Source: Eggerthella sp. YY7918 (lineage in GTDB: Bacteria; Actinomycetota; Coriobacteriia; Coriobacteriales; Eggerthellaceae). Taken from it: a stretch of DNA of 64,000 nt. Made by a program: the position numbers and the translations under genes. Each line of letters begins with the position of its first letter. Position 1 is the first letter of the stretch. The notes below the pieces were generated by a model. That model saw only the letters and a list, made by a program, of their open reading frames with translations. It did not search any database and was not told the DNA's origin. Below are positions 3,088 through 46,670 of this stretch, piece by piece. The stretch is from NCBI RefSeq assembly GCF_000270285.1, contig NC_015738.1, forward strand, positions 806,001-870,000, written 5' to 3'.

Positions 3088-4827
3088 ATGCTGGAAACCG
3101 TGGACTTTTCGCAAGAACCGCTTTCAAAAGAAGCGTACAAGCCGCGCCGTGACGCGCTTATGGAACAACTCGTGGTTCTGCAGCAGCAGGCACGCGAGCG
3201 GGGTGTCGGTCTGGTCGTGCTTTTTGAGGGCTGGGATGGCGCCGGCAAAGGCAGCCGTATATCTGACCTTATGTATCATCTTGATGCGCGAGCCACCAGC
3301 GTATATGTTACCGAGAACCTCGACGTGAAAGCTGCACGCACCTTTCCCGGCGCACCGTATGGGGTGACGGGGTTCCAGCCGGTTATGCAAGAGTTCTGGA
3401 AGGCGCTCGGCATGCGCGGCACCATTACGTTTTATGATCGCGGTTGGTATACGGCCGCCACCCAGCACATGCTTTATACCGAATATGGTCGCCTCTCCAT
3501 CAAAAACGACAAGAAAGCACGTGCGAAGGGGCACATGGCCGATGCTATTGCCAAAGCGCGCGACGAGCGTCATATCGACGTGCTGCGCCGGTATCTTACC
3601 TCTGCGGCGGATTTCGAGAAGCAGCTGACCGACGATGGCTATCTTGTGGTCAAGTTTTTTGTGCACGTAACCAAGGAAGCGCAGAAAAAGCGTCTCAACC
3701 GCCTTTACGACGACCCTGCTACGCGTTGGCGCGTGAGCGAGCGCAAGCTTGCAAGCGTCGGCAACTACGAGGAGGCGTATCGCCTCTACGACAATCTGCT
3801 GGAAGGCAGCGATTTCTCCTACGCTCCGTGGCACCTCATAAATGGCGAGGACAAACGTGGCGCGAACCTTTGCATTGCCGAGACGCTTGTGGGCGTGCTT
3901 ACCGAAGCGCTTGCGGCCCAGCCTAACGAAGATGCCGCCGCAGCAGCGGCAAAGGCGCAAGCGAATTCGGCCGGTGCGCTCAAAGAAATTCCTTCCGCAG
4001 ATCGCACGCCTGCCGACGAGGCGCGCATTCTTGAAGAGGCCGAGCGCGAGGCGGCTGAGGCTCGTTCGCACGCTCCGCGCGCGTCGCGTTTTCGTGTGGT
4101 GGATAATCCGCCCAAAGTTGACGAAATCGATCATTCCCTTGTACTCGATCTTGAGGACTACAAACGCGAACTCAAAGAGCAGCAGCATCTTCTTAACAAG
4201 CTTGAGATGGAAATGTATCAGAAGCGCATTCCGCTCATGCTTATGTACGAAGGCTGGGATGCGGCGGGCAAGGGCGGCAATATCAAGCGCGTTGCTCAGG
4301 CGCTCGATGCGCGTGCCTATACCATTTTTCCCAGTCCGGCCCCTACAAAGCCCGAGCTGTTACACCCGCATTTGTGGCGTTACTGGACGCGGCTTCCTAA
4401 GGCGGGGCATGTAGGCATTTATGACCGCAGCTGGTACGGCCGTGTGCTGGTGGAACGGGTGGAAGGATTCGCGTCGACGGCCGAGTGGGCGCGCGCCTAC
4501 GATGAAATTAACGAATTTGAGCAGGAGTTGGTGCGCTGGGGAGCCATCTTGCTGAAGTTCTGGGTCGATGTAAGCCCCGAAGAGCAGTTGCGGCGCTTTA
4601 CCGATCGTCAGAACGATCCGGCCAAGCAATGGAAGATTACCGATGAGGACTGGCGCAATCGCGATAAGTATCCTCAATATAAGGCGGCCGTGGAGGATAT
4701 GTTCCGCCTCACGTCGACGCCGTTCGCGCCTTGGATTGTGCTTGAAAGCGATGACAAGCATTATGCGCGAGTCAAAGCGCTCAAAATTATCAACGAAGCA
4801 CTGGAAGCGCGCTTGCGCGAAAAGTGA
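3088..4827 (+). CDS. pap: Two-domain polyphosphate kinase 2 (polyphosphate:AMP phosphotransferase type)
   Basis: The 579-residue protein contains two PPK2 domains in tandem. The first has a Walker A motif GWDGAGKG at about residue 48 and FYDRGWYTAA; the second has GWDAAGKG at about residue 389 and YDRSWYGRVLVERV. An alanine- and glutamate-rich linker of about 80 residues (roughly 270-350) separates them. Two-domain PPK2 enzymes typically phosphorylate AMP to ADP with polyphosphate, which is the reason for the symbol; ADP to ATP activity cannot be excluded. The start at 3088 follows GGAAAGGAC. It is divergent from ppx-ppk, so the locus can make, hydrolyse and use polyphosphate. Confidence 0.88.
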   Translation: MLETVDFSQEPLSKEAYKPRRDALMEQLVVLQQQARERGVGLVVLFEGWDGAGKGSRISDLMYHLDARATSVYVTENLDVKAARTFPGAPYGVTGFQPVMQEFWKALGMRGTITFYDRGWYTAATQHMLYTEYGRLSIKNDKKARAKGHMADAIAKARDERHIDVLRRYLTSAADFEKQLTDDGYLVVKFFVHVTKEAQKKRLNRLYDDPATRWRVSERKLASVGNYEEAYRLYDNLLEGSDFSYAPWHLINGEDKRGANLCIAETLVGVLTEALAAQPNEDAAAAAAKAQANSAGALKEIPSADRTPADEARILEEAEREAAEARSHAPRASRFRVVDNPPKVDEIDHSLVLDLEDYKRELKEQQHLLNKLEMEMYQKRIPLMLMYEGWDAAGKGGNIKRVAQALDARAYTIFPSPAPTKPELLHPHLWRYWTRLPKAGHVGIYDRSWYGRVLVERVEGFASTAEWARAYDEINEFEQELVRWGAILLKFWVDVSPEEQLRRFTDRQNDPAKQWKITDEDWRNRDKYPQYKAAVEDMFRLTSTPFAPWIVLESDDKHYARVKALKIINEALEARLREK

Positions 4828-6432: not shown

Positions 6433-7578
6433 ATGACCGAGAGAATAACGGTGAGTGCGGCGCAAACGGAAGATGGTCCTCATATGCCCAGCTGGATGGA
6501 TGAGGATGCCGTAACGTACGCTCAGGCGGGTGTTGACACCGCCGAGGGTGCTCGCGCGGTCGAGGCCATCAAGAGTGTTGTGCACGACACGTATCGACCC
6601 GAGGTGGTGGGCGACATCGGCGGCTTCGGCGGGCTGTTCTCCATCGCGGCGGCCAAGGATATGACCGACCCGCTGCTGGTCAGCGGCACCGACGGCGTGG
6701 GTACGAAGCTGAAAGTCGCCCAGATGGCCGACAAGCACGACACCGTGGGTATCGATCTGGTGGCCATGTGTGCCAACGACATTCTGGCCACGGGTGCTGA
6801 GCCGCTGTTCTTCCTCGATTACGTCGCTATTGGCAAGCTGAAGGCCGAAGCCGTGGCCGAGATTGTGGCAGGCATCGGCGAGGGCTGCAAGCAGGCGGGC
6901 TGCGCGCTCATCGGCGGCGAGATGGCCGAGCATCCCGGCGTTATGGATCCGGATGACTACGACCTGTCCGGCTTCTGCGTGGGTGTGGTTGACCGTCCGA
7001 AGATGCTCGATCCCGAGAGCGTGCGCCCCGGTGATGTGCTCATCGGCCTCGCGTCGAGCGGCCTGCATTCCAACGGCTACTCGCTTGCGCGCAAGGTGTG
7101 CGTGGAGGGCATCACCCACTACGAGCTGCGCATTGAGCGCGAGGAGCTTGAGGGTCGCAGCCTGCAAGAGGCGCTGCTTGAGCCCACGCGCATCTACGTG
7201 AAGCCCGTGCGCGCCGTGCTGGATGCGTGTCCTGGAGCCGTGCGCGCGCTCGCGCACATCACGGGTGGCGGCATCTCCGAGAACCTCGATCGCGCCCTTC
7301 CCAAGACCTGCGATGCCGAGGTGGATCTGGGCACGTGGCCCGTGCCTACTATCGCGACATTTGTATGTAATGCGGCCCATCTGGACGAAGCCGAAGCGCT
7401 CAAGACCTTCAACATGGGTCTTGGCATGGTGCTTATCGTGGATCCCGCACAGGCAGAGGCTGTCGAAGCCGCTCTCGCCGAAGCCGGCGAGAAAACGTAT
7501 CGCGTCGGTCGCATCATTGAAGGGGAAGGCCAAGTCCGCTACGCGAACGAAGGCGCTCTGTACAACTACGAGGGGTAG
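6433..7578 (+). CDS. purM: Phosphoribosylformylglycinamidine cyclo-ligase (AIR synthetase)
   Basis: PurM closes the imidazole ring, turning FGAM into AIR with ATP, in the fifth step of purine synthesis. The 381-residue protein shows the family's SGTDGVGTKLKVAQ near residue 94, the GVGIDL-like VGIDLVAMCANDIL segment, LIGGEMAEHPGVM, and ASSGLHSNGYSLAR. An N-terminal extension of about 25 residues precedes the conserved TYAQAGVD start. AAGGAG stands just before the ATG. It is followed after 13 bp by purN, so the two are cotranscribed. Confidence is high. Confidence 0.96.
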   Translation: MTERITVSAAQTEDGPHMPSWMDEDAVTYAQAGVDTAEGARAVEAIKSVVHDTYRPEVVGDIGGFGGLFSIAAAKDMTDPLLVSGTDGVGTKLKVAQMADKHDTVGIDLVAMCANDILATGAEPLFFLDYVAIGKLKAEAVAEIVAGIGEGCKQAGCALIGGEMAEHPGVMDPDDYDLSGFCVGVVDRPKMLDPESVRPGDVLIGLASSGLHSNGYSLARKVCVEGITHYELRIEREELEGRSLQEALLEPTRIYVKPVRAVLDACPGAVRALAHITGGGISENLDRALPKTCDAEVDLGTWPVPTIATFVCNAAHLDEAEALKTFNMGLGMVLIVDPAQAEAVEAALAEAGEKTYRVGRIIEGEGQVRYANEGALYNYEG

Positions 7579-7591
7579 CGGAAGGATTGCT

Positions 7592-8206
7592 ATGGCTGAA
7601 CCGCTGAAGATCGGGGTGCTGCTGAGCGGTGGCGGGACGAATCTGCAGGCCGTCATTGATGCGATTGCGAACGATGGGTTGCCCGTAGATATCGTGCATG
7701 TGGTGTCGTCGCGACCGGACGCGTACGGTATCGAGCGGGCGCGGACGGCAGGCATTCCGACGACGGTGCTCAATCGCGACGTGTATGCCGATCCGGAGGC
7801 TGCCGATGCGCGCATCGTGGAAGCGCTCCGTTCGGCGGGGGCCGAATACGTGGTTATGGCGGGCTACATGCGTAAGGTAACGCCGGTCATGTTGAAGGCA
7901 TTTCCCGATCGCGTGCTCAATCTACATCCGGCGCTGCTGCCGTCGTTCAAGGGCGCGCACGCTATCGCCGACGCGTTCGATGCGGGCGTGAAGGTGACGG
8001 GCGTGACGGTCCACTTCGCGAATGAGGACTACGACAAAGGCCCCATCGTGGCGCAGCGCCCCGTAGAGGTGCGCGAAGGCTGGACGCTCGATGAGCTGGA
8101 AACCGCCATTCACGAGGTCGAGCACGAGCTCTATCCGCAGGTATTGCGTTTGTTGGCCGAGGGTCGCATCGTCGTAGGTGACGATCGGAAAGTGCACGTC
8201 GGCTAA
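7592..8206 (+). CDS. purN: Phosphoribosylglycinamide formyltransferase
   Basis: PurN transfers a formyl group from 10-formyl-tetrahydrofolate to GAR in the third step of purine synthesis. The protein has 204 residues, the usual family length. It shows the N-terminal GVLLSGGGTNLQAVID, the catalytic N and H in VLNLHPALLPSFKG, and a conserved Asp in NEDYDKGPI. The start at 7592 was chosen over longer frames because it follows GGAAGG directly after the purM stop. The next gene begins one base after its stop codon. Confidence 0.96.
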   Translation: MAEPLKIGVLLSGGGTNLQAVIDAIANDGLPVDIVHVVSSRPDAYGIERARTAGIPTTVLNRDVYADPEAADARIVEALRSAGAEYVVMAGYMRKVTPVMLKAFPDRVLNLHPALLPSFKGAHAIADAFDAGVKVTGVTVHFANEDYDKGPIVAQRPVEVREGWTLDELETAIHEVEHELYPQVLRLLAEGRIVVGDDRKVHVG

Positions 8207-8207
8207 C

Positions 8208-9155
8208 ATGGAGGCGTTTCTTGTCGCAGAATCGGCAATGGCGACCTTATTCATCCTGCTTGCTCTCGGGTTCATTGCCCGCAAAACGGGTATCGTCGAC
8301 GATAGCTTTGACACGACCCTTTCCAAAGTGGTTATGACCATTACCTGTCCGGCGATGATTCTTAATTCGGTGCTCTCAAGCACTGAATCGCCCTCGACCG
8401 ACACGATTCTGCTGATACTGGGCATCTCGTGCGTCACGTACGTCGTAATACTTGTGGCGGCATGGTTACTGCCTTTGGTGTATCGGGTCCCCAAACGATC
8501 GCGCGGTCCGCACCGGTTCACCATTGCATTCGGAAACACGGGCTTTATCGGGTTTGCCGTGCTCGGGGCTATTATGGGCGGTCAGTCGGTACTGTATGCG
8601 TCGATTTACAACATCCCCTACAACCTCATCATGTTCACTATCGGTACGGCAATGATGGCCACCTCGGGTGACGTGAAGATGTCGCGTACCGATCAGTTTA
8701 AAACCGTCGGCCGCAGTCTTGTGAGTCCGGTTATGCTCTCGTGCGTGGTTGCTCTGTTTCTGGCGCTGTTTCATGTCACCGACACCGAGGGTATCGCGGG
8801 CAAAACATGCCAGATGCTCGGCCAGATGACGCCGCCTGCGTCAATGCTGGTCATCGGGTCGACAATGGCGAAGTTCAACCTGAAGACCATGCTCGGAAAC
8901 GCGTCCGCCTACGTCACCACCTTTGTGCGGTTGCTGATCGTGCCGGCTCTCGTGTTTTTGGTGGGCGGGTTCTTTACCACCGATCCTTTTTTGCTTGCTG
9001 CGCTTGTGCTCGTTTCCGCTATGCCGGTGGCCAGTATGGGAACTATCATGTGTTTGACGTACGGCGGCGATTTGACCACCATGTCGCAGTGTACGTTTCT
9101 CTCCACCGCGTTATCGCTCATTACGATTCCGCTCGTGGCGGCATTCGTACTTTGA
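8208..9155 (+). CDS. AEC-family (auxin efflux carrier-like) permease
   Basis: A 315-residue integral membrane protein with about ten hydrophobic helices arranged as two halves, typical of the AEC family, which exports or imports organic acids and other small metabolites. Segments such as TCPAMILNSVLSS and AFGNTGFIGFAVLGAIMGG match the conserved proline and asparagine positions in the broken helices. The ATG at 8208 lies one base after the purN stop, so translation is probably coupled; an in-frame start 30 bp upstream inside purN is possible. Placement in a purine operon beside an XdhC-like protein suggests a purine-related or carboxylate substrate, but this is only context. Confidence 0.8.
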   Translation: MEAFLVAESAMATLFILLALGFIARKTGIVDDSFDTTLSKVVMTITCPAMILNSVLSSTESPSTDTILLILGISCVTYVVILVAAWLLPLVYRVPKRSRGPHRFTIAFGNTGFIGFAVLGAIMGGQSVLYASIYNIPYNLIMFTIGTAMMATSGDVKMSRTDQFKTVGRSLVSPVMLSCVVALFLALFHVTDTEGIAGKTCQMLGQMTPPASMLVIGSTMAKFNLKTMLGNASAYVTTFVRLLIVPALVFLVGGFFTTDPFLLAALVLVSAMPVASMGTIMCLTYGGDLTTMSQCTFLSTALSLITIPLVAAFVL

Positions 9156-9188
9156 CAGGAGTTATCTCACAGAAGGCAGGTAAGAAAC

Positions 9189-10178
9189 ATGGACAGAAGC
9201 GTACTCAGTGCCATTGTAGCCGATCTGAAAGAGGGCCGCACGCCCATTTTGACAGGGGAGGACTTCCCCTGCTTTACGCCCGAAGCTCTTGAAGGTAACC
9301 GACATGTGAATTCGTCGTATCTCGATGTCGTTTCTGCAAGTCTTACTGCTGCCGATATCCCCACGTTTGAACGCGCTCTGCGCGCTATGGAGGAGGGCGA
9401 CCTTGCGTGGCTCGGTTTCAAGATTGTCTACGATGCGGACGAAGCCGTTCGCAACACCGACAACGAGGTGACGAAAAAGTATGGCGACACCGGGTCGGCT
9501 GACGGACGGCCGCTCGTGTTCTTCTGCAACGATGCGAAGGAGATTGTCGCTTCGCGTGAGCCGAGTCCCCGCGATACCTTCCAAATGAAAGATGTCACGC
9601 GCGGCCCGTCGATGCACAACGAGCAGTTCGAAGGCCTCACCTGGCTCTCCGTGCCGCTGTTCGAGCAGGTGCACGTGTGGTTGCTCGGCGCCTCCGATGC
9701 CGCAAGCGAGGTGGCGGCGCTGGCCGACCATGTGGGTTTCGCTGTGACGGTGGTGGATTACGATCCGGCTTACGTCAACGAAGCACGCTTCCCTTCGGCG
9801 CATCGTATCGTGCTTCCGGGGGGCAACTTCGACGCTCTCGATCAGATGGAATGCAGGCCCGAGGACTACGTGTGTGTGCTCACGCGCGGTCACATGTTTG
9901 ATCCCGAGGGCTGCGTGTGGGCCACAAAACATCGCGCGCACTACGTTGGCATGATGGGATGTGCGGGCAAAAACGACACGGTGCATGATCTTGTGCTGGC
10001 TCGCGGCGCTACCGAAGAAGATTGGCAGCGCGTCAAGCGCCCCATCGGCCTCAAGTTCGGCGCGAAGACACCCGCCGAATTAGCTATCGCCATCGTCGCT
10101 GAACTGGTAGACGTTCGTTACAAACAACGCTACAGTGAAGAAGCCCGCTTAAAGCACGAGCAAAGCCTGGGTAGGTAA
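9189..10178 (+). CDS. XdhC/CoxI-family protein
   Basis: XdhC-family proteins help insert or sulfurate the molybdenum cofactor of xanthine dehydrogenase-type hydroxylases. The 329-residue protein has the N-terminal XdhC/CoxI part and a C-terminal Rossmann part that starts at VWLLGASDAASEVA and continues to VTVVDYDPAYVNEARFP, with the family's GMMGCAGKNDTV and RPIGLKFGAKTPAELAIAIVAE. No molybdenum hydroxylase, molybdenum transporter or Moco synthesis gene lies in the window. It sits between the AEC permease and purH, and follows AAGGCAGG before its ATG. A link to xanthine or hypoxanthine use is plausible from the purine context. Confidence 0.85.
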   Translation: MDRSVLSAIVADLKEGRTPILTGEDFPCFTPEALEGNRHVNSSYLDVVSASLTAADIPTFERALRAMEEGDLAWLGFKIVYDADEAVRNTDNEVTKKYGDTGSADGRPLVFFCNDAKEIVASREPSPRDTFQMKDVTRGPSMHNEQFEGLTWLSVPLFEQVHVWLLGASDAASEVAALADHVGFAVTVVDYDPAYVNEARFPSAHRIVLPGGNFDALDQMECRPEDYVCVLTRGHMFDPEGCVWATKHRAHYVGMMGCAGKNDTVHDLVLARGATEEDWQRVKRPIGLKFGAKTPAELAIAIVAELVDVRYKQRYSEEARLKHEQSLGR

Positions 10179-10210
10179 AGCGGAACAAACAAGAAAGGAT
10201 GTAAGGCCAT

Positions 10211-11785
10211 ATGAGCGATCCGAAAGTCAAGCGTGTGCTCGTATCCGTGACGGACAAGACGAAGGTGGCGGACTTCGCCCGCGCCCTTGTCGAGGAGTTC
10301 GGTGCGGAAATCATCTCTACGGGCGGTACGGCCCGCGTTCTCAAGGAGGCTGGCGTACCGGTTACTCCCATCGATGACGTAACGCAGTTCCCTGAAATGA
10401 TGGACGGGCGTGTGAAAACGCTGCATCCGCGCGTGCATGGTGGTCTTCTGGCCAAGCGCGACAACGCCGACCATATGGCCCAGGCGGCCGAACACGGCAT
10501 TGAAATGATCGACATGGTAGTGGTGAACCTCTACGCATTCGAGAAAACGGTGGAAAGCGGCGCCGACTTCGGCACCTGCATCGAAAACATCGACATCGGC
10601 GGTCCCAGTATGCTGCGCTCCGCTGCGAAGAATTTTGAGAGCGTGGCCGTGGTTACGCGTCCGGAAAGCTATGATGCCATCTTGGCTGAAATGCGCGATA
10701 ACGACGGTGCTACCACGCGCGACACGCGTGCGAAACTGGCCCTCGATGTGTTCCGTACTACGGCAGCCTACGACGGCGCTATTGCCGCATGGATGGGCGC
10801 GCAGCTGGATGACGAAGGCGACGCGAAATTCCCCGAGGCGCGCAACCTTCGCCTGACCAAAGTGCAGGATTTGCGCTATGGCGAGAACCCGCACCAATCC
10901 GCCGCGTTCTATCGTCGTGACGATTACGTAAATGCCGAGCATTCGCTGGCGCACGCGCATCAGCACCAGGGCAAGGAGCTTTCGTACAACAACTACCTCG
11001 ACCTCGATGCCGCCTGGACGGCCGTGCGCGAGTTCGACAAGCCAGCCTGTGTCATCGTGAAGCATCTCACGCCCTGCGGCGTGTGTCAGGATGACGACCT
11101 CGTGGCCGCCTATCAGCGTGCTCATGCGTGCGACCCGGTGAGCGCCTACGGCGGAGTCATGGCGTTCAACCGTCCGGTGACCAGCGATGTGGTAGTGGCT
11201 ATCTTCGACAACAAGCAGTTTGTGGAAGCCATCATTGCGCCCGAGTTCGCCGGCGACGCGCTTGACATGTATTCTGCCAAGAAGAACGCACGCCTGCTGT
11301 CCACCGGCGGTGTGAACCCGGCCGGCGGGGAAGTGGAGTACCGCTCCGTCGAAGGCGGCCTGCTAGCCCAAGATTCCGACGCGGTGCTGGAAGACCCCGC
11401 GACGTTCACGGTGGCATCCAAGCGCCAGCCCACGCCCGAGGAAATGGAGCAGCTGGTGTTTGCTTGGAAGGCTTGTAAGTCGGTCAAGTCGAACGCCATT
11501 CTTATCGCCAAGGATTTTGCAACGGTAGGCGTAGGCGGAGGTCAGCCCAACCGCGTCAATTCGGCGCGCATTGCGGTGGAGCAGGCAGGCGAGAAAGCTC
11601 AGGGTGCTGTGGCGGCATCGGATGCGTTCTTCCCATTCCGTGACGGTTTCGACACGCTGGCCGAGGCGGGTATCACGGCAGTTATCGAGCCAGGCGGTTC
11701 CATCCGCGACGAAGAGGTTATCGCCGCCGCCGATGAACAAGGTGTGGCACTGGTATTCACGGGTCATCGCCATTTCAGGCACTAA
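10211..11785 (+). CDS. purH: Bifunctional AICAR transformylase / IMP cyclohydrolase
   Basis: PurH carries out the last two steps of IMP synthesis. The protein has 524 residues, as expected. The N-terminal cyclohydrolase part (about 1-195) shows [44 protein letters not shown] and [16 protein letters not shown]. The C-terminal transformylase part has [30 protein letters not shown], the catalytic Lys-His pair in [11 protein letters not shown], and [27 protein letters not shown] precedes the ATG. It closes the purM-purN block and a strong hairpin follows. Confidence 0.97.
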
Positions 11786-40273: not shown

Positions 40274-40350
40274 CGGGTTGTGGCTCAGCTTGGTAGAGCG
40301 CTGCGTTCGGGACGCAGAGGCCGCAGGTTCAAATCCTGTCAACCCGACCA
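40274..40350 (+). tRNA. tRNA-Pro (CGG), CCA encoded
   Basis: A complete cloverleaf. The acceptor stem is CGGGTTG with CAACCCG, the anticodon stem is CTGCG/CGCAG with loop TTCGGGA giving anticodon CGG (proline), and the T arm contains GGTTCAAATCC. The terminal CCA is encoded. Its last 50 bases are the left attachment repeat of the island that follows. Confidence 0.95.
40301..40350 (+). repeat. attL: 50-bp direct repeat within tRNA-Pro
   Basis: The 3' 50 bases of the tRNA, from CTGCGTTCGG to ACCCGACCA, recur without mismatch at 46621-46670. The bases before and after the repeat differ, so 50 bp is the exact identity. Confidence 0.93.
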
Positions 40351-40359
40351 GATACTCCA

Positions 40360-40388
40360 GGTCAGACGCTTGTGTCTGACCTTTTTTG
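40360..40388 (+). terminator. Terminator carried by the island just after tRNA-Pro
   Basis: GGTCAGAC and GTCTGACC pair around GCTTGT, followed by TTTTTT. It lies inside the island and now ends the tRNA-Pro transcript. Confidence 0.8.
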
Positions 40389-40452
40389 TGTCCCGATCAG
40401 GTTCAAACAGGGTTATAGGGGGTTATAGGCCAAAATGTGTACCCTAAGTGGT

Positions 40453-40572
40453 TTAGTAATCAATACGATACGGATCGCTCATGTGCAATTCACTCCATTG
40501 AATGGCGCCGCCCCATTGAGCTACAACTTCGTCTTTATGATTGGTGTTGTTTGCTGCTTGATAAAGTTGTGC
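40453..40572 (-). pseudogene. C-terminal remnant of a second IS1249-like transposase
   Basis: The minus strand encodes about 39 residues ending in WSELHMSDPYRIDY before a stop, closely similar to the end of the neighbouring transposase (WNDLHMGSPYRIDY). It is cut at 40572, exactly where the inner IS end begins. This remnant shows the two insertions are related but diverged. Confidence 0.7.
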
Positions 40573-40614
40573 TTATAGGCCAAAATGTGTGTCTGGCAGA
40601 TAATCCTGATCGTT

Positions 40615-41731
40615 TCAATAATCTATGCGATACGGGCTGCCCATATGCAGGTCGTTCCATTGAATTGCGGTACCCCACCGCTCGATGAGCTCATCGCGTC
40701 CATGCGTATCGGATGCGGCTCTAAAGAGGCTTGCTATCGTTTCGTCTGTGGGCATCTTTTCGAGAATGTCAGATGCAGGCAAGGGGCGCTCTGTATGCAT
40801 GTAGCACCACCAAAAGATGGCCTTGATCCTTCTATCGATGCTCAGGCCTCTATGTTCGCCCAGCATGATTCTCAGCTGCCTGTTCACCCCTCCTTCTATC
40901 CTGTTGTTAGTTGCAGGAATGGCGCCCCCCCTCCATAAGGCCCTCGTCTAAATACGTGAACAGTGTGCCGGCTCGCGCGAGCTTCTCAAGCCCCCTTCGC
41001 GCACGACGCAGACGCTCGTGCTTGTACTGGCTTTTGCCGTCGATAATCGTTTTTTCTTTGAGAAACTCATCCCAGCGTGTGCACCAATTTGAAAACGAGG
41101 CGAGCCATATGGCGGCACCCTGGGAGTCTGTTACTTGTAAAAGTTCTTTAGCGATTCCATAGAGCTCTACGCTGGCTTGGAGCTTTGGTCTTGTGGTGGT
41201 CTGGCGCTTCACCTGCTCAAAGGCGTGGAAGGTGCACCTCTGCACGCGGGTGTGGGGCCGAATGACGCGCCGCGCCTTCTCAAAGCCACTCCCTCCATCA
41301 GTGACGACTACATCGGGAGCTGCTATGCGCACCAGAAGCGCGGCCCATGTGGCCGAGCACTCGCTTCTTGCCAAATGCCAGCCAATGACAGCGCTTTGGG
41401 TACAGGCGATGAGCACGACCGCCTTGCGCCCAAGCCATATGCCATCAACGTGGACGACGTGGTGTATCTCGTCGCAGAAGGGAGCGACGGGCCATATGCT
41501 CCAAAACAAAGAGGTGAGGCGCCTGAACGTTCTAGCGGACACGCCCGTCTCACATTGCCTCTTTTTGGAAAGTAGCCAGTCCAAGAACAGTTTGAAGAGC
41601 TTAGCGGACCTGTCATAGCTTCGCGTGGTGGATGCGCCGCAAGACTTGCAGCGCCACCTAGTAGCGCCTGCGCTCGTCGTGCCATTGCGCTTCGTTTCGC
41701 CCCCGCACGCAGGGCATGTTATGTTCTTCAT
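40615..41731 (-). pseudogene. IS1249-like transposase, frameshifted
   Basis: The first frame (41731 to 40907) encodes a zinc-ribbon start (ITCPACGGETKRNG, WRCKSCGAS), then the DDE core with VHVDGIWLG and VVTDGGSGFEKARR. It stops after GLMEGG. Skipping one base of a run of seven G (C on the plus strand, near 40925) restores IPATNNRIEGGVNRQLR, the conserved end region of this family, and continues to 40615. The joined product would have about 370 residues. The error needs a one-base deletion to repair, so a -1 ribosomal slip would not rescue it; mutation or a sequencing error in the G run is more likely. Confidence 0.82.
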
Positions 41732-41955
41732 CCCATAATTGAATCATGAGATTTTTAAAAGAGGCATTTGTACCTTCTGACCTGCGCTGTCAAGTCAGAA
41801 TCGGACACACATTTTGGTCGGGTGTTTAAAAACAAGATCAATTTTTAAAGCGCGACTTTTCATTGTATGAACTGGAGTTATATAGCAAAACCAGACACAC
41901 ATTTTGGCCTATAACCTACCATTGGTGCGGGAGACGGTGTTGTTTGACTTCGAAA

Positions 41956-41983
41956 GTCAGGCGAAGCTTTTGCTTCGCCTGAC
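41956..41983. terminator. Terminator of the minus-strand micro-ORF unit
   Basis: GTCAGGCGAAGC pairs exactly with GCTTCGCCTGAC around a four-base loop. TTTCG follows on the minus strand and AAAATTC on the plus strand, so it mainly serves transcription from the right. The flanking stretch 41917-41955 holds no gene. Confidence 0.65.
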
Positions 41984-42032
41984 AAAATTCATTCATACGT
42001 CTTGCCCGGAAGGCGCAAGAATTCTTGAAGCG

Positions 42033-42116
42033 TTATCCATCCACCTTTGGAGGGGCGGGATAATAAGGTCCTGAAGTTCCGATGAAACGACCACGTGGGT
42101 AAGTGATGAAAAACAC
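42033..42116 (-). CDS. 27-residue micro-ORF, third of a set
   Basis: Starts with GTG 6 bp after a perfect AGGAGG and encodes MFFITYPRGRFIGTSG, then YYPAPPKVDG. No family is recognised. It is rich in aromatic, Pro and Gly residues. The strong ribosome site, the two similar neighbours upstream and the terminator downstream support it being translated. It might be a peptide product, a toxin-like peptide, or a RiPP precursor for the radical SAM enzyme of the island. Confidence 0.5.
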   Translation of the reverse strand: MFFITYPRGRFIGTSGPYYPAPPKVDG

Positions 42117-42165
42117 AGTACACCTCCTTTACTCGATTAATGAAATCGTAGGTTTTGATAACCTA

Positions 42166-42231
42166 TTACTTGCGTCCGCCAATGCGGCCAGTCCCGCCAA
42201 GACGGTAACCGCCATTGCGCTGAGAGCCCAT
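42166..42231 (-). CDS. 21-residue Gly/Arg-rich micro-ORF
   Basis: ATG at 42231 stands 8 bp after AGGAGG. The product begins MGSQRNGGYRLGG and ends TGRIGGRK: seven Gly-Gly or R-x-G elements and no acidic residue. A second reading frame (ATG at 42235, 36 residues, hydrophobic) overlaps it but has poor spacing to the ribosome site, so I prefer the 21-residue frame. Function unknown; the composition resembles glycine-rich modified peptides or RNA-binding tails. Confidence 0.45.
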   Translation of the reverse strand: MGSQRNGGYRLGGTGRIGGRK

Positions 42232-42266
42232 CTCATTCACCTCCTAACTTTGTAAGCTTCCTGTAT

Positions 42267-42380
42267 TTACCTGTTGCTCGGGCAGCTTGGATTTGAGCAA
42301 ATGGTCCCCGAGTCGTTCGTGATAGCATCTCCACCGCAATCTGGACAATCGATTTCAACACCTTCGCGCTGGTCAGACAT
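42267..42380 (-). CDS. 37-residue zinc-ribbon-like micro-ORF
   Basis: ATG at 42380 follows AAGGAGAGAGG. The product, MSDQREGVEIDCPDCGG to the C-terminal SNPSCPSNR, has four cysteines (12, 15, 28 and 33) in a CxxC-x12-CxxxxC arrangement, which fits a small zinc ribbon. It is first of three minus-strand micro-ORFs (37, 21 and 27 residues). A zinc ribbon this small suggests a nucleic-acid-binding or regulatory peptide. Confidence 0.55.
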   Translation of the reverse strand: MSDQREGVEIDCPDCGGDAITNDSGTICSNPSCPSNR

Positions 42381-42413
42381 TCCTCTCTCCTTTCTCTGTA
42401 GGATTTAATTTTT

Positions 42414-42427
42414 GAAGATCGATCTTC
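42414..42427. promoter_or_regulatory. Perfect 14-bp palindrome upstream of the micro-ORF unit
   Basis: GAAGATCGATCTTC, 34 bp before the first micro-ORF start, is a perfect palindrome and a candidate operator. On the minus strand TATGAT at about 42442-42447 could be the -10. Confidence 0.4.
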
Positions 42428-42543
42428 TTTCGACGCTTAAATCATACTCCGTTGAATCCTGCGTAGTCCTAGGGTGTGAAACTCTTTCAAGGGATTTTCG
42501 AGGATGACACCTGTGTACATCCAGGAAAATCTAGGATATTCTT

Positions 42544-42558
42544 GATAGCTAAGCTATC
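42544..42558. promoter_or_regulatory. Inverted repeat upstream of the plus-strand island operon
   Basis: GATAGCT and AGCTATC flank one A. It overlaps a -35-like TTGATA at 42542-42547 and lies about 50 bp before the 450-residue gene, so it may control that promoter. Confidence 0.4.
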
Positions 42559-42606
42559 TACTTACTGTATGTAACTTTGCATGAGTAAAACCGGAGGGGA
42601 TTCCAG

Positions 42607-43959
42607 ATGACTGAACGGATTTTCGTCTCGGAATGTGTCTACTATGATTGCAACGGTCGTGTATTGGTAAGTCCCGGAAAAATATCCCAAGCTTTTCTGC
42701 CGGGTCAAACGAATCTTTTCCTAAAGATCCATAAATCTCCGGAACGTACGATGTATGTTGGCCCATCAAAGAACCTACAGAACACCATTTCAGCTATAAA
42801 TATGCGTGGTGTTGCTGTGGGTTTGCCCTATGGGTCTGTTATTCAGAATATTGGTTCAGGAAACTATAGAGCGAGTTATTTTTGTAAAAACGAGGAGAAA
42901 CTTGATAGTTTACTCAATGGTGTCGAATCTAACGGAGGGCTTGCAAAAAATCTTGCCGCATCGTACTTTGGTAGTTCAACGGAAGAGGAAAAAGGTAGCA
43001 TTGCTGATGCGAATTGGTTTCTTTCTGAGTCGTTCGAAGATAAAGATGAGTCACTAAAAGAGGTCTTTTTCGATGAAGTGAATAGGCATATTAAAGCTCT
43101 ATGCACTAATGCTCAATCGGTTTTAATTGAATATAGCAGTGATACGACTATAGATGTTAGCGGGTGGCCAAAGAAACCCTATCACGTCAAAAGTACCGTT
43201 CGGAGAAGGAGGGTTGGTGTAGGATCAAACGTCTTTTATGATTGTTTTCACTTCGCGGATAGACTAAGGGCGGAAACTTTCAAATATAGCAGCATAAGAA
43301 TTATTGATGAGGATGGAAATGTGATACTCGATATGGATAGACTTCCTTCTAATAAGGAGGGTCTTTCCAAGGATGACATAATAGAGTCATTCAGTGTTGC
43401 CGATTGGGATGTATCGTGCGAAATTCGAACTCAAGAAATTGAAAAGCGTATAGGTTCTTCGATTGATGTATTAGAGTATGCTTTAAGAAAAAAGATCGAT
43501 GACAACAGCTTTTATAAAGTAATTTTGCGATGTTGGACTTGTTGTGGTGCGGAGTACAAATGGCGTAATTGCAGCGACGCCGAACAACCAAAAAAGGGAA
43601 AGAAGGGGCTATATTGCTCAACTGATATTCGCATAGAAGCTCCTCATGATACAAAAACGACTATTGAGTTGGTATGCGAATTTGATACATGGTCTGTTGG
43701 ATTTAGCACGTTCTTTCAGGAATACGTTTATGAACCATCCATTAGGGCAAGTATAAAGGGAAGAAATGAGGAATATACATTTACGCTCAGGCAATTCTCT
43801 TCTCAATCTCCATTTTGGAGGAGAAAAGATGGCAAACATTTTGTAACGGACTTGGCAACAGAGATGTTAAGTGATCGGCTAATTGCTTGGAAATATACCG
43901 AGCAGTGGTTAATGATCGGTGAGGGCTATGCTATTGTTGTCGAAGCCGCAAAACGCTAA
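42607..43959 (+). CDS. 450-residue protein of unknown family, first gene of island operon
   Basis: I recognise no family. The ATG follows GGAGGGG at 7 bp. The protein appears soluble: no signal peptide and no membrane helix. The first 75 residues look beta-rich (RIFVSECVYYDCNGRVLVSP); residues about 115-165 are acidic and helical; STVRRRRVGVGSNVFYDCFH lies near 200. A cysteine group CWTCCGAEYKWRNC near residue 310 could bind metal, and the C-terminal quarter has FTLRQFSSQSPFWRRKDG. The precursor-like peptide gene begins 8 bp after its stop, so it is cotranscribed with the peptide and the radical SAM gene. A role as peptide-binding partner, modification enzyme or effector are all open. Confidence 0.7.
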   Translation: MTERIFVSECVYYDCNGRVLVSPGKISQAFLPGQTNLFLKIHKSPERTMYVGPSKNLQNTISAINMRGVAVGLPYGSVIQNIGSGNYRASYFCKNEEKLDSLLNGVESNGGLAKNLAASYFGSSTEEEKGSIADANWFLSESFEDKDESLKEVFFDEVNRHIKALCTNAQSVLIEYSSDTTIDVSGWPKKPYHVKSTVRRRRVGVGSNVFYDCFHFADRLRAETFKYSSIRIIDEDGNVILDMDRLPSNKEGLSKDDIIESFSVADWDVSCEIRTQEIEKRIGSSIDVLEYALRKKIDDNSFYKVILRCWTCCGAEYKWRNCSDAEQPKKGKKGLYCSTDIRIEAPHDTKTTIELVCEFDTWSVGFSTFFQEYVYEPSIRASIKGRNEEYTFTLRQFSSQSPFWRRKDGKHFVTDLATEMLSDRLIAWKYTEQWLMIGEGYAIVVEAAKR

Positions 43960-43967
43960 GTGAGGAA

Positions 43968-44339
43968 ATGAAAATGCTTACTACTCAAACTCTGTCAATT
44001 CTGAGGACAAAAACTTCACAGGGGACCGATCTCCGGTCGGCGATTGCGAGATGTGAAGTTCGAAAGGTAAAGAGCAGTCATGCTCTACCTAGTAAAACTA
44101 CTGACTCATTTTCACAATTCGACTGCACCGAAACAGATCCGGTCATAATTGGAGGAGTTCTTTTCTTGAGTAATGAGAGTGGGGCTGGCACTCCTGTGTC
44201 TTCTGCAAATTACGATTGTAATTGCGATTGCGTTAGCTATATCTATTCTAACAAATTCATAGGTATCAAAACTGATTGGCCGACGAATTCTATTTGTCTC
44301 GATTGCAATTGTGATTGTACGGAAATTACCGCAATCTGA
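43968..44339 (+). CDS. Cys-rich peptide with duplicated DCNCDC motif, likely RiPP precursor
   Basis: A 123-residue protein (121 from the second ATG at 43974, which has the better distance to GAGG). The first half is polar and basic without hydrophobic signal; nine cysteines occur, seven of them in the last 40 residues as NYDCNCDCVSYI (84, 86, 88) and ICLDCNCDCTEITAI (110, 113, 115, 117). FDCTETDP near residue 52 is a partial echo. The stop overlaps the start of the radical SAM gene by one base. A leader-like part plus repeated Cys-Asn-Cys cores next to such an enzyme is the usual picture of a thioether-forming RiPP; metal-binding is the alternative. Confidence 0.7.
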   Translation: MKMLTTQTLSILRTKTSQGTDLRSAIARCEVRKVKSSHALPSKTTDSFSQFDCTETDPVIIGGVLFLSNESGAGTPVSSANYDCNCDCVSYIYSNKFIGIKTDWPTNSICLDCNCDCTEITAI

Positions 44340-45346
44340 TGTCGTCGTCTCATAAGAAAACGAGTGTTTGGTTAACAATTAACCGTGCATGTAACTTGCG
44401 ATGTACTTGGTGCTACGGAGCTTCTTCAGGTTTTGCGCATGATCTTGTAATGTCTCTTGATGTTGCTAAGCAGTGTATTGAATTTGCGCAACGTTGTGGC
44501 GTTTCAAGAGTCGTTTTGATTGGCGGTGAACCGACGCTCCATTCAGAAATTCTTTCCGTTATAGATTTGATTCATAGCTATGGAATGAAGATAGCTCTTG
44601 TTACTAATGGTGTATGTTTTGGAGTCGAAAAACATGGAAGCAAAATTCTCGAACGACTAGATTATGATGACTCAATCAATGTTTCCATTAAAGGGGTTTC
44701 TCGAAATGAATACGGTGCTCTTTGCTCGGATCTCGGCGCGTTTGATAGGGTCGTCAAAGGTTTAAGCATTCTCGGAGCAATCACCGCTCCCCGCACCTCT
44801 ATTTCATACGTGGTTTCCGAGAATAATATTGAAGTTCTGGAAGAGACGTTGTTGTCGATTCGCGAGATGACTGATCTTCCGTTAGGGCTTTCATTTTGTG
44901 GGCCGTGTTTTGACAAAGATGGATTTGAAGGAAAGATGTCAATCCAAGATCGTTCAGAGCTTGTTAATATGTGCTTAAATGTTTTAGGAAACACTTCTGT
45001 CAAAGACATTTCTCTTCATTTAAATCTATCAATGTGCAAAGTCAATGCCTTCGAGCTTGGTAAAGCTCTTGAGCGTTGTAATATTCACACAGGTTGTCAT
45101 GTTCTCAATAATTCTGGTATTGTTTTTGACACTAATGGAGATCTGCTATTGTGCAATCATCTTGTAGGAATGCCAATTGGTAGATTTGGGGAAGACTATC
45201 GTACTGCGGATAGCTTTCAAAATTATCTTGATTCACAAGCATATTCTGACGCATGGAGCGCCTTTACTCGATTGCCGTTTAATGATTGCGAAGGATGCGA
45301 TTCGCTTCTCATATGTGGCGGGGGATGCCCGCTTCACTTCTTTTAA
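44339..45346 (+). CDS. Radical SAM/SPASM-type peptide-modifying enzyme
   Basis: A 335-residue radical SAM enzyme. The cluster motif CNLRCTWCYG (CxxxCxxC) lies near residue 19, VVLIGGEPTLHSEI near 58, and the C-terminus carries auxiliary-cluster cysteines: HTGCHVLNNSGIVFDTNGDL, LLCNH, then CEGCDSLLICGGGCPL. The protein ends three residues after that motif, which is earlier than many SPASM enzymes. The start ATG shares one base with the stop of the Cys-rich peptide, so translation is coupled; an in-frame start at 44315 lies inside the peptide gene. The predicted job is to form carbon-sulfur or similar links in the peptide. Confidence 0.85.
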   Translation: MSSSHKKTSVWLTINRACNLRCTWCYGASSGFAHDLVMSLDVAKQCIEFAQRCGVSRVVLIGGEPTLHSEILSVIDLIHSYGMKIALVTNGVCFGVEKHGSKILERLDYDDSINVSIKGVSRNEYGALCSDLGAFDRVVKGLSILGAITAPRTSISYVVSENNIEVLEETLLSIREMTDLPLGLSFCGPCFDKDGFEGKMSIQDRSELVNMCLNVLGNTSVKDISLHLNLSMCKVNAFELGKALERCNIHTGCHVLNNSGIVFDTNGDLLLCNHLVGMPIGRFGEDYRTADSFQNYLDSQAYSDAWSAFTRLPFNDCEGCDSLLICGGGCPLHFF

Positions 45347-45479
45347 TCGTTACTTAGGTATATGGGATATGCACCTGCGGGGGCTAAAAAGCATCAAGGT
45401 AGATGATGAAACGGTAAGACTCATGCGGGATGACTTCGTAGCTGTCAGTCGCGTTCTGCCTTTGTCGAAAGAAACATGA
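45343..45479 (+). pseudogene. Possible frameshifted C-terminal tail of the radical SAM enzyme
   Basis: The +1 frame stays open beyond the radical SAM stop and reads TSFNRYLGIWDMHLRGLKSI and on to SRVLPLSKET, ending in ATGA that overlaps the next start. It contains plausible protein-like sequence but no start codon with a ribosome site near 45340, so it may be the original C-terminus cut off by a one-base change after CGGGCPL. It may instead be noise between two real genes. Confidence 0.4.
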
Positions 45480-46294
45480 GTCAAAAAGGGAGGATGACTG
45501 GGAGGATGGAAATGCTTAGCAAGACTGTTAATCATGTGCAATGGAATCAATTCATTGCATTGGAAGAGGACTTTGTGGCTAGCTTGCGATACGTTGAGCT
45601 TTGCGAAAGTAATCTAAAAACTTATTCGACGGAATACGCGAAGTTGTTATTAGCCGCTGGGTCTGAAATTGATGTGGGATTAAAGCAGATATACTCTTTG
45701 TTGACACATAAAAGTAGTGAGAATAAAGGCATATGTGCATGTAAAACAGCTTTGCTTGACTATGAAAGAAAGGCGGGCGAGGATGTAATAAGGCTTTCCG
45801 ATATAGCGGTTGGTATTAAGAATAACGAAGTGCTTATATTTCCCTGGGATGCTTGGAGAGGTGAAGCTAAAGAAAATCCGATATGGTGGGATAATTACAA
45901 CGACGTTAAGCACCAAAGGGCCGAACGGTTTGACCTTGCCAATTTGGAAAATGTCCTTTTTGCATTTGCGGGGCTTGAGGCAATATTGGTAACGTATTAC
46001 AGACTTGCTGGTGCAATTACAATCATCCCTGCTGCAAAACATTTTCGTCTTCCTCCTGCTGTTGCGGCGCCGGCAGATTTTCCTGGGGGAGTATCTGGCT
46101 TTCGCGTTGATGAAAACCATATTCGCGAATATGTTCAAGGTGGGCAAGCTATGTTTGAATTATTGTTGGGTGGCATGTCGGGGCCGATGCCTGACTTTTC
46201 GGTGCAGAGAGTTCTCATTCCTGATCGTGGCTTTGTTAAGTACGATGATTGTAGAAATGAGGGCGAGCAGGCAGGGGAAGGCATCTCTGGCTAG
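45476..46294 (+). CDS. HEPN-like protein at the end of the island operon
   Basis: A 272-residue protein with helical character. Residues about 138-180 read WWDNYNDVKHQRAERFDLAN followed by LENVLFAFAGLEAILVTYYR, a pattern I associate with HEPN-like proteins found in toxin-antitoxin and defence contexts; the classic RNase motif Rx4-6H is not evident. The start at 45476 overlaps the tail frame (ATGA); starts at 45494 or 45512, after GGGAGG, are also possible. The last 70 residues are rich in Gly and Pro. It could be an immunity, toxin or accessory protein of the peptide system. Confidence 0.55.
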   Translation: MSQKGRMTGRMEMLSKTVNHVQWNQFIALEEDFVASLRYVELCESNLKTYSTEYAKLLLAAGSEIDVGLKQIYSLLTHKSSENKGICACKTALLDYERKAGEDVIRLSDIAVGIKNNEVLIFPWDAWRGEAKENPIWWDNYNDVKHQRAERFDLANLENVLFAFAGLEAILVTYYRLAGAITIIPAAKHFRLPPAVAAPADFPGGVSGFRVDENHIREYVQGGQAMFELLLGGMSGPMPDFSVQRVLIPDRGFVKYDDCRNEGEQAGEGISG

Positions 46295-46620
46295 CCCGTA
46301 CTTCTGCAAAGAGCGAGGTGTTGTGGCTGTACGGACGATTTCTCGTGAAATTGGGAAGTTTTCTTTTCAAAGTTGGTGGTTTGTTGTAATATACCCAGAG
46401 TTGTCCGGCGGGTGCGTTTATGCAAGTTCGATTGACGCTGCCAGAAAAGGCAGGGTCGGCATAGACACTCGGCAGGGTTCAATTTAGTTCAACAAGTTTG
46501 AAAGCATTTTGTTGAGCCTGTTGAAGTTTGTTGATACTTGTTAGGGTGACAAGATGACCTCATGAAATGGAACTTACTAAATTGCGAGGTCATTAGGGTA
46601 AGGTAAGATTTGGCTGTTTT
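46295..46620. other. Non-coding right end of the island
   Basis: No gene can be supported. Near the attachment site the stretch 46490-46545 repeats TTGTTGA/GTTGAA-like units, and ATGACCTC at 46554 is repeated inverted as GAGGTCAT at 46586. These may be arm sites for an absent integrase or remnants of its gene end. Confidence 0.45.
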
Positions 46621-46670
46621 CTGCGTTCGGGACGCAGAGGCCGCAGGTTCAAATCCTGTCAACCCGACCA
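46621..46670 (+). repeat. attR: 50-bp copy of the tRNA-Pro 3' end
   Basis: Identical to 40301-40350, including CCA. It is not a tRNA gene because the 5' half is missing. Confidence 0.93.

Follow-up and report, generated by a model that had tools for sequence, protein, structure and literature searches.

Among the ranthipeptides, a class whose history is given in PMC11002830, the residues that pair with cysteine as acceptors are Asp in freyrasin and Asn in NxxcA, the latter having Cys23 joined to Asn20 (PMC8326336). PapB accepts Cys-Xn-Asp with n = 0-6, i.e. the Asp follows the Cys, and the transposed order was left unprocessed in one test (PMC9413430).

Here we describe a gene pair with related features in the window, i.e. 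the whole stretch of 64,000 nucleotides of Eggerthella sp. YY7918 DNA that was analysed. A Cys-rich peptide gene is followed directly by a radical SAM/SPASM gene (Table 1). Our best reading is a new family of radical SAM RiPPs, most likely thioether peptides of the ranthipeptide type: we consider it probable that the enzyme acts on the Cys-rich C-terminal part of the peptide, most likely by thioether formation, and that the pair belongs to a wider, undescribed family.

Table 1. Features of the tRNA-bounded island and of the peptide/enzyme pair; positions are those of the window.
Feature	Position	Strand	Basis or remark
Island left end, 3' 50 nt of tRNA-Pro(CGG) 40274-40350	40301..40350	+	tRNA, repeat
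Insertion sequence within island	40421..41916		20-24-nt inverted ends
Transposase-like ORF of the insertion sequence	40907-41731	-	Pfam lines just under cut-offs
450-aa ORF, family unknown	42607..43959	+	directly 5' of peptide, probably same transcript
Putative precursor peptide gene	43974..44339	+	121 aa, from ATG at 43974; 123 aa from 43968
First DCNCDC block of peptide	44214..44231	+	motif position in ORF
Second DCNCDC block of peptide	44301..44318	+	motif position in ORF
Radical SAM/SPASM enzyme, 335 aa	44339..45346	+	motifs, Pfam, NCBIfam, predicted structure
CNLRCTWC (radical SAM cluster motif CX3CX2C)	44390..44413	+	sequence motif
SPASM-type CX2CX5CX3C (C317, C320, C326, C330)	45287..45328	+	alignment
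Open +1 frame past enzyme stop, possible displaced enzyme C-terminus	45345..45479	+	ORF list, alignment
272-aa ORF	45476..46294	+	no Pfam match
Island right end, exact 50-nt copy of tRNA-Pro 3' end	46621..46670	+	repeat

The peptide and its radical SAM neighbour

Of the two possible starts of the peptide, at 43968 and at 43974, the second (an ATG) has the more favourable distance to the GAGG, a sequence reading that would give 121 residues. In the 123-residue form the cysteines are at positions 29, 53, 84, 86, 88, 110, 113, 115 and 117. The first-pass annotation had described this longer ORF, with seven cysteines in its last 40 residues and two DCNCDC blocks 29 residues apart, and the description is reproduced from the coordinates and residue positions: the last 40 residues hold 7 out of the 9 cysteines, and the blocks start at residues 83 and 112. 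It had also noted a one-base overlap with the radical SAM gene, which is correct, the A of the peptide TGA (44337-44339) being shared with the ATG at 44339. The DNA copies of the two blocks differ at 3 out of 18 nucleotides, and every difference is found at the third position of a Cys codon. The double motif did not occur in any of 100 shuffled versions of the window, and none was found in the viral contigs. The peptide is present as a single copy within its own genome; no NCBIfam profile matched it and a plasmid search with it gave no match.

The neighbouring gene was proposed earlier to be a radical SAM gene with extra C-terminal cysteines, and this is confirmed by a Pfam Radical_SAM match (E 2.3e-15), by the CNLRCTWC motif and by a SPASM-like CX2CX5CX3C arrangement whose four Cys columns are invariant in 9 out of 9 aligned rows (the window enzyme counted among them). 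The enzyme is also matched by phrog_1802 (E 1.8e-17). Its predicted structure is fairly confident (pLDDT 82.5) and best matches the folds of BlsE, anSMEcpe, 5why (which we take to be CteB) and SuiB with a TM of about 0.6, and EpeE is also among the matches. An exact 8-mer search for near relatives of the enzyme found none in the genome contigs and none in the viral contigs.

The 3' end of the enzyme gene deserves a separate comment. The stop at 45346 may be native, or it may stem from a recent frameshift or an error in the sequence. It is rather unlikely, in our opinion, that the system of the window is decaying, i.e. that a frameshift close to the 3' end of the gene has left the enzyme inactive. 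Such a decay would be consistent with the +1 frame, which is open to 45479 and shares ATGA with the start of the 272-aa ORF; following the last Cys it encodes N-R-Y, as compared to N-Y in 7 out of 9 relatives. However, the enzyme of a relative (L054, see below) ends at about the same point, and the cluster cysteines of the window enzyme are all upstream of the stop.

Recurrence of the pair and the Asp/Asn-Cys rule

The pair was looked for from both sides. On the peptide side, the DNA pattern GATTGYAAYTGYGAYTGY-N48-78-TGYNNNTGY matched 37 contigs across 84,980 species genomes; 22 out of the 37 matches are in open frames shorter than 60 residues, and the second motif is out of frame in 9. A scan of the 37 loci for radical SAM motifs flagged two, of which L070 was rejected as a false flag caused by its own Cys run. 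In the other one, L054 (UBA2450, Bacillota; 1 out of 37 contigs), a radical SAM gene adjoins a DC-rich ORF with 24 cysteines, and its enzyme is the closest relative of the window enzyme across all searches (32% identity over 329 aa, E 7e-55). The 37 matches also include Cys-rich ORFs in L052, L066 and L084, loci with no recognised radical SAM gene: L084 (Blautia parvula, 7377-7998) has an ORF of about 200 aa with 52 cysteines in CxC/DCDC repeats, and L052 (Bacteroidia, 4040-4255) has a 71-aa peptide with 15 cysteines, a DCDCDCNCDC run and a leader-like start, no radical SAM gene being recognised within either 8-kb locus.

The searches with the enzyme gave eight more relatives, each matching over the full length and with an E of at most 1e-20 in the search that found it. 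In the class, 3 out of 396 genomes had a match at E 1e-20, i.e. the window's own genome, L014 and L015. L099 and L100 were the two new matches in 279 genomes (limit 1e-25), L101 and L102 the two in 391 genomes (limit 1e-40) and L177 the one new match in 395 genomes (limit 1e-40), while L103 was the only locus below 1e-30 among 70 viral loci. A further 43 genomes of the order of L177, some of them already covered, gave no new relative, and the L177 enzyme as query had no match in plasmids, phages or viral contigs. The window enzyme itself matched 60 plasmid records, the 20 listed being all at or below 30% identity; the neighbourhoods of two rhizobial plasmids and one Nostoc plasmid had no dense D/N-Cys ORF.

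A D/N-Cys peptide is present within 1 kb of the enzyme gene in 5 out of the 8 relatives picked by the enzyme, and in 3 out of 8 it is on the same strand and adjoins the enzyme gene. L099 has a 114-aa peptide with 27 cysteines, 164 nt 3' of the enzyme gene and on the same strand. L177 has two peptides on the same strand, one of 53 aa 21 nt 5' of the enzyme gene and one of 55 aa 4 nt 3' of it. The weakest case is L103, where a 71-aa peptide with five cysteines is on the same strand and overlaps the enzyme stop by one base. Together with L054, these loci show that the adjacency noted by the first-pass annotation is repeated elsewhere, and its refuting condition, that such a peptide never adjoins a relative of the enzyme, does not hold; a putative precursor gene adjoining a putative maturase gene, which is the general mark of a RiPP locus, is found in the window and again in L054, L099, L177 and L103. 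Two of the points against our best reading come from the enzyme-picked loci. First, no D/N-Cys peptide was found near the enzyme gene in 3 out of the 8 enzyme-picked relatives (L102, L014 and L015); the gene next to the enzyme in these three presumably encodes a UvrA-like ATPase. Second, the peptides of L100 and L101 (26 and 27 aa, both with DCCDDCDW) are on the other strand, convergent to the enzyme gene and beside a second radical SAM gene. This second, radical SAM/SPASM-like gene is located at 1796-3179 in L100 and at 2572-3973 in L101, and the DCCDDCDW peptide overlaps it or directly follows it, alike in both genomes; the Pfam test of this gene covers L100. A second radical SAM-like gene is also found further upstream in L014 and L015. 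Other points against our best reading, given in their places in this text, are the leader of the window peptide, the peptides with a non-significant D/N excess, the positive control loci, the order of Cys and Asp in PapB substrates, the lack of a recognised RRE/PqqD-like gene or exporter, and the C-terminus of the window enzyme, whose native form may have been lost.

The leaders MNLEFINKL and MELDFLNKL of the two L177 peptides resemble each other as well as SLDFINK of L099; this likeness is not visible in the window, L054 or L103. In the tree the enzymes of the window, L054 and L103 are grouped together (98/97), and all ten enzymes of the clade are separated from two phage radical SAM enzymes (100/100). 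The exact place of the window enzyme is unsure because its branch is long.

What the peptides have in common is Asp or Asn at position -1, and often -3, of the cysteines. In the window peptide 7 out of 9 cysteines have a D/N neighbour, versus 2.1 in shuffled peptides (p 0.00035). The residue at -1 is D/N in 7 out of 9 cysteines in the window, 18/24 in L054, 22/27 in L099, 7/8 and 4/9 in the two L177 peptides (L177a and L177b, respectively), 3/5 in L103, and 2/3 in both L100 and L101. For the window, L054, L099, L177a and L103 this exceeds shuffled sequences with a p of at most 0.015 (p values uncorrected for nine offsets in eight peptides), and the excess is not significant in L177b (p 0.07), L100 and L101. 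Position -3 is also enriched in the window (6/9), L054, L099, L177a and L103; note that odd offsets from Cys are indistinguishable in CXC arrays. Position +4 is enriched only in L103 (4/5) among the eight peptides, while it is not enriched in the window (2/9) and is depleted in L054 (1/24).

In order to judge these numbers we used a control filter, written after the peptides had been seen, that selects small ORFs with a ribosome-site-like motif, located within 1 kb and having at least 3 D/N-flanked cysteines. It was positive for 7 out of 10 clade loci (a count that takes in the window as well as L054, the latter found via its peptide) versus 23 out of 82 other radical SAM loci, and for none of the 8 radical SAM loci in the window's own genome. 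With at least 2 such cysteines the counts are 7/10 and 33/82, one of the controls being from the own genome. As for background, 24 loci not picked by motif have 3 comparable ORFs in 244,258 bases, none of them dense, and 60 loci including motif-picked ones have 13 ORFs in 522,723 bases, 8 of them dense. A D/N-Cys small ORF beside a radical SAM gene is therefore not unique to this clade. All 23 positive control loci come from viral contigs, a few of which are almost the same in sequence, and we read them as a second, related phenomenon beyond noise, because several are multi-Cys phage proteins adjoining radical SAM genes.

In six viral contigs (L125, L132, L137, L146, L156 and L160) radical SAM genes are found near CNC/DCNC-repeat proteins. 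Four of these (L125, L132, L146 and L160) were read gene by gene and have several radical SAM-like genes each; L160 also has an ORF with 52 cysteines at 8911-10566. SD.RLK, which we take to be a tail-fibre-like motif, forms the C-terminal end of the repeat proteins in L132, L137 and L146, and the viral loci look like cases of radical SAM modification of phage structural proteins. One might go further and propose that [D/N]-C repeats are a general radical SAM substrate code, where one clade writes chains of small Asp/Asn-Cys thioether rings on free bacterial peptides and other radical SAM enzymes, sometimes several per phage, do so on Cys-rich tails of phage structural proteins. We regard this generalisation as quite unlikely, but if it were true, phages would have covalently hardened, oxidation-proof protein tips.

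By analogy with PapB and NxxcA, the peptide is most likely the substrate, a thioether the product and Asp/Asn the acceptor. We picture that the enzyme would bind the peptide encoded just before it, and that the 5'-deoxyadenosyl radical would take a side-chain hydrogen from the Asp or Asn beside a Cys. The thiol of the neighbouring Cys, held by an auxiliary cluster, would then close a C-S bond (-2 Da per link), so that each peptide would end up with several small rings of the thioether kind within its two DCNCDC blocks. An unlikely alternative is that the peptide is indeed the substrate, but of another reaction such as epimerisation, oxidation of Cys or Asp, or C-C bond formation, giving a thiol-rich peptide that binds metals or clusters. 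The fold matches span anSMEcpe, SuiB, 5why and EpeE alike, presumably enzymes of differing chemistries, the NCBIfam models listed represent unrelated chemistries and are all below cut-off, and up to 27 closely spaced cysteines with acidic neighbours could bind metal. What speaks against it is that two known ranthipeptides, freyrasin and NxxcA, have Cys as the donor and Asp or Asn, respectively, as the acceptor (PMC8326336). With thioether formation as the preferred reading, the loci would provide a number of enzymes with their peptides in which donor and acceptor are arranged unusually, i.e. D/N before Cys and up to 27 cysteines, and such pairs could test how far radical SAM thioether chemistry iterates.

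The island and its other genes

The 50-nt tRNA-Pro repeats are 6,320 bp apart and delimit an island of about 6.3 kb. The GC content is about 0.38-0.42 at 42.5-46.0 kb versus 0.55-0.61 beyond 47.5 kb. Three out of 40 family genomes (G112, G030 and G207) have an unbroken match from the repeat through the next genes, presumably tatA and greA, with the whole tRNA-Pro present, which is the island-free layout; the genus-mate G112 is without the peptide/enzyme pair. In other genomes the two sides are kilobases apart, and the contents of the seven such sites that were read differ. The tRNA-Pro(CGG)/tatA junction (40274-46670 in the window) seems to be a preferred site of integration within the family. 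No integrase was recognised on the island. The tRNA-Pro repeats, the low GC and the island-free layout in relatives make it probable that the pair arrived as the cargo of a small mobile element.

The operon order is 450-aa ORF, peptide, radical SAM gene and 272-aa ORF, and together with the insertion sequence these are the only genes recognised on the island. The 450-aa ORF had no profile or database match except for one Pfam line below cut-off, it was found in 1 out of 197 class genomes, which is its own, and its structure predicted without an alignment is unusable (pLDDT 32.9). Distant relatives of the 272-aa ORF, which we take to be HEPN-like, occur in plasmids (8 records), in phages (3 records) and in 3 out of 197 genomes besides its own. 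No exporter, transporter or peptidase, and likewise no RRE/PqqD-like gene, was recognised among the operon ORFs; the lack of a recognised transporter or peptidase may be a hint at a product that works within the cell. RiPPs encoded on mobile islands might in that case have a new, intracellular role.

One may ask whether the four ORFs form one defence module, where the modified peptide gates the putative HEPN-like protein. We consider this very unlikely. It is true that the four ORFs are alone on the island apart from the insertion sequence, that the radical SAM gene of L099 overlaps a UvrD-helicase gene by 4 nt (the C-terminus of this helicase is presumably HEPN-like), and that an integrase as well as a type I specificity gene is found in the vicinity of L100. 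However, the 272-aa gene was rejected as a fixed partner of the enzyme, since no radical SAM gene is annotated in 5 out of 5 plasmid neighbourhoods of its relatives and none was recognised at the 3 genome loci. The neighbours of the other pairs differ as well, and PADLOC matched only the radical SAM enzyme among the four ORFs, via viperin models, i.e. no anti-phage system beyond a generic radical SAM fold. Finally, it is highly improbable that the peptide is an unmodified metallothionein-like protein with a radical SAM neighbour acting on something else: CXC arrays alone can bind metals, and the Cys-rich ORFs of L052, L066 and L084 do without a recognised radical SAM gene, but the same enzyme clade adjoins such peptides repeatedly in distant genomes, the N-termini are leader-like and none of three peptides scanned has a match to any Pfam family, metallothionein included.

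Comparison with described radical SAM systems

The first-pass annotation had read the locus as a ranthipeptide/sactipeptide-like RiPP layout with a Cys spacing that it did not know from a described class. The layout is repeated beyond the window; the statement on spacing holds as far as it was tested, i.e. NCBIfam gave no meaningful match for any of 8 peptides and D/N is at -1/-3 rather than +4. Among the seven peptides of the relatives, six had no NCBIfam match and the one of L054 gave weak MSCRAMM repeats. In titles and abstract starts we found no description of such peptides, which is weak evidence as subscription papers and preprints are largely outside this coverage, and the string DCNCDC was found in one paper, on mitosis timing.

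It is instructive to compare the pair with the radical SAM systems it resembles. The phage radical SAM genes (phrog_1802 enzymes, phrog_26958) are similar in as much as they adjoin CNC/DCNC-repeat proteins, but their enzymes are distant and elsewhere in the tree, and their cysteines are in the tail of a larger protein that looks structural. The SCIFF/CteB ranthipeptides share the combination of a Cys-rich peptide and a SPASM enzyme, with 5why among the fold matches of the window enzyme; on the other hand no SCIFF model matched any of the 8 peptides, and D/N-C arrays are not known from SCIFFs.

The NCBIfam models give the same picture at the level of the enzyme. Out of 85 models that matched the window enzyme 25 are listed, and none of these 25 reaches its own cut-off. 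The sactipeptide model StsB, which is among them, gives 64.3 bits versus a cut-off of 625. The best full-length model among the 25 is PapB (NF047865), and the PapB/freyrasin system is similar in that it combines a radical SAM/SPASM maturase with a Cys- and Asp-rich precursor. The PapB cut-off of 340 bits is however not reached by the window enzyme (66.6 bits), nor by those of L054 (51.4), L099 (63), L103 (56.1) and L101 (60.1), and for L177 the model is absent from the matches at E 1e-12. In contrast to freyrasin with its six CX3D motifs, the window peptide has one CX3D (C53) and one CX3E (C115), and follows the -1/-3 rule instead; its order, D/N before Cys, is the opposite of that in PapB substrates.

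The Streptococcus ranthipeptide NxxcA is similar to the window peptide in having its acceptor Asn three residues before the Cys, a position where D/N is enriched here. It differs in having one ring as compared to arrays of up to 27 cysteines, and the likeness is drawn from the peptide pattern rather than from kinship of the enzymes. As a pattern of residues, the D/N-Cys arrangement resembles NxxcA more than freyrasin, in which the Asp is four residues after the Cys.
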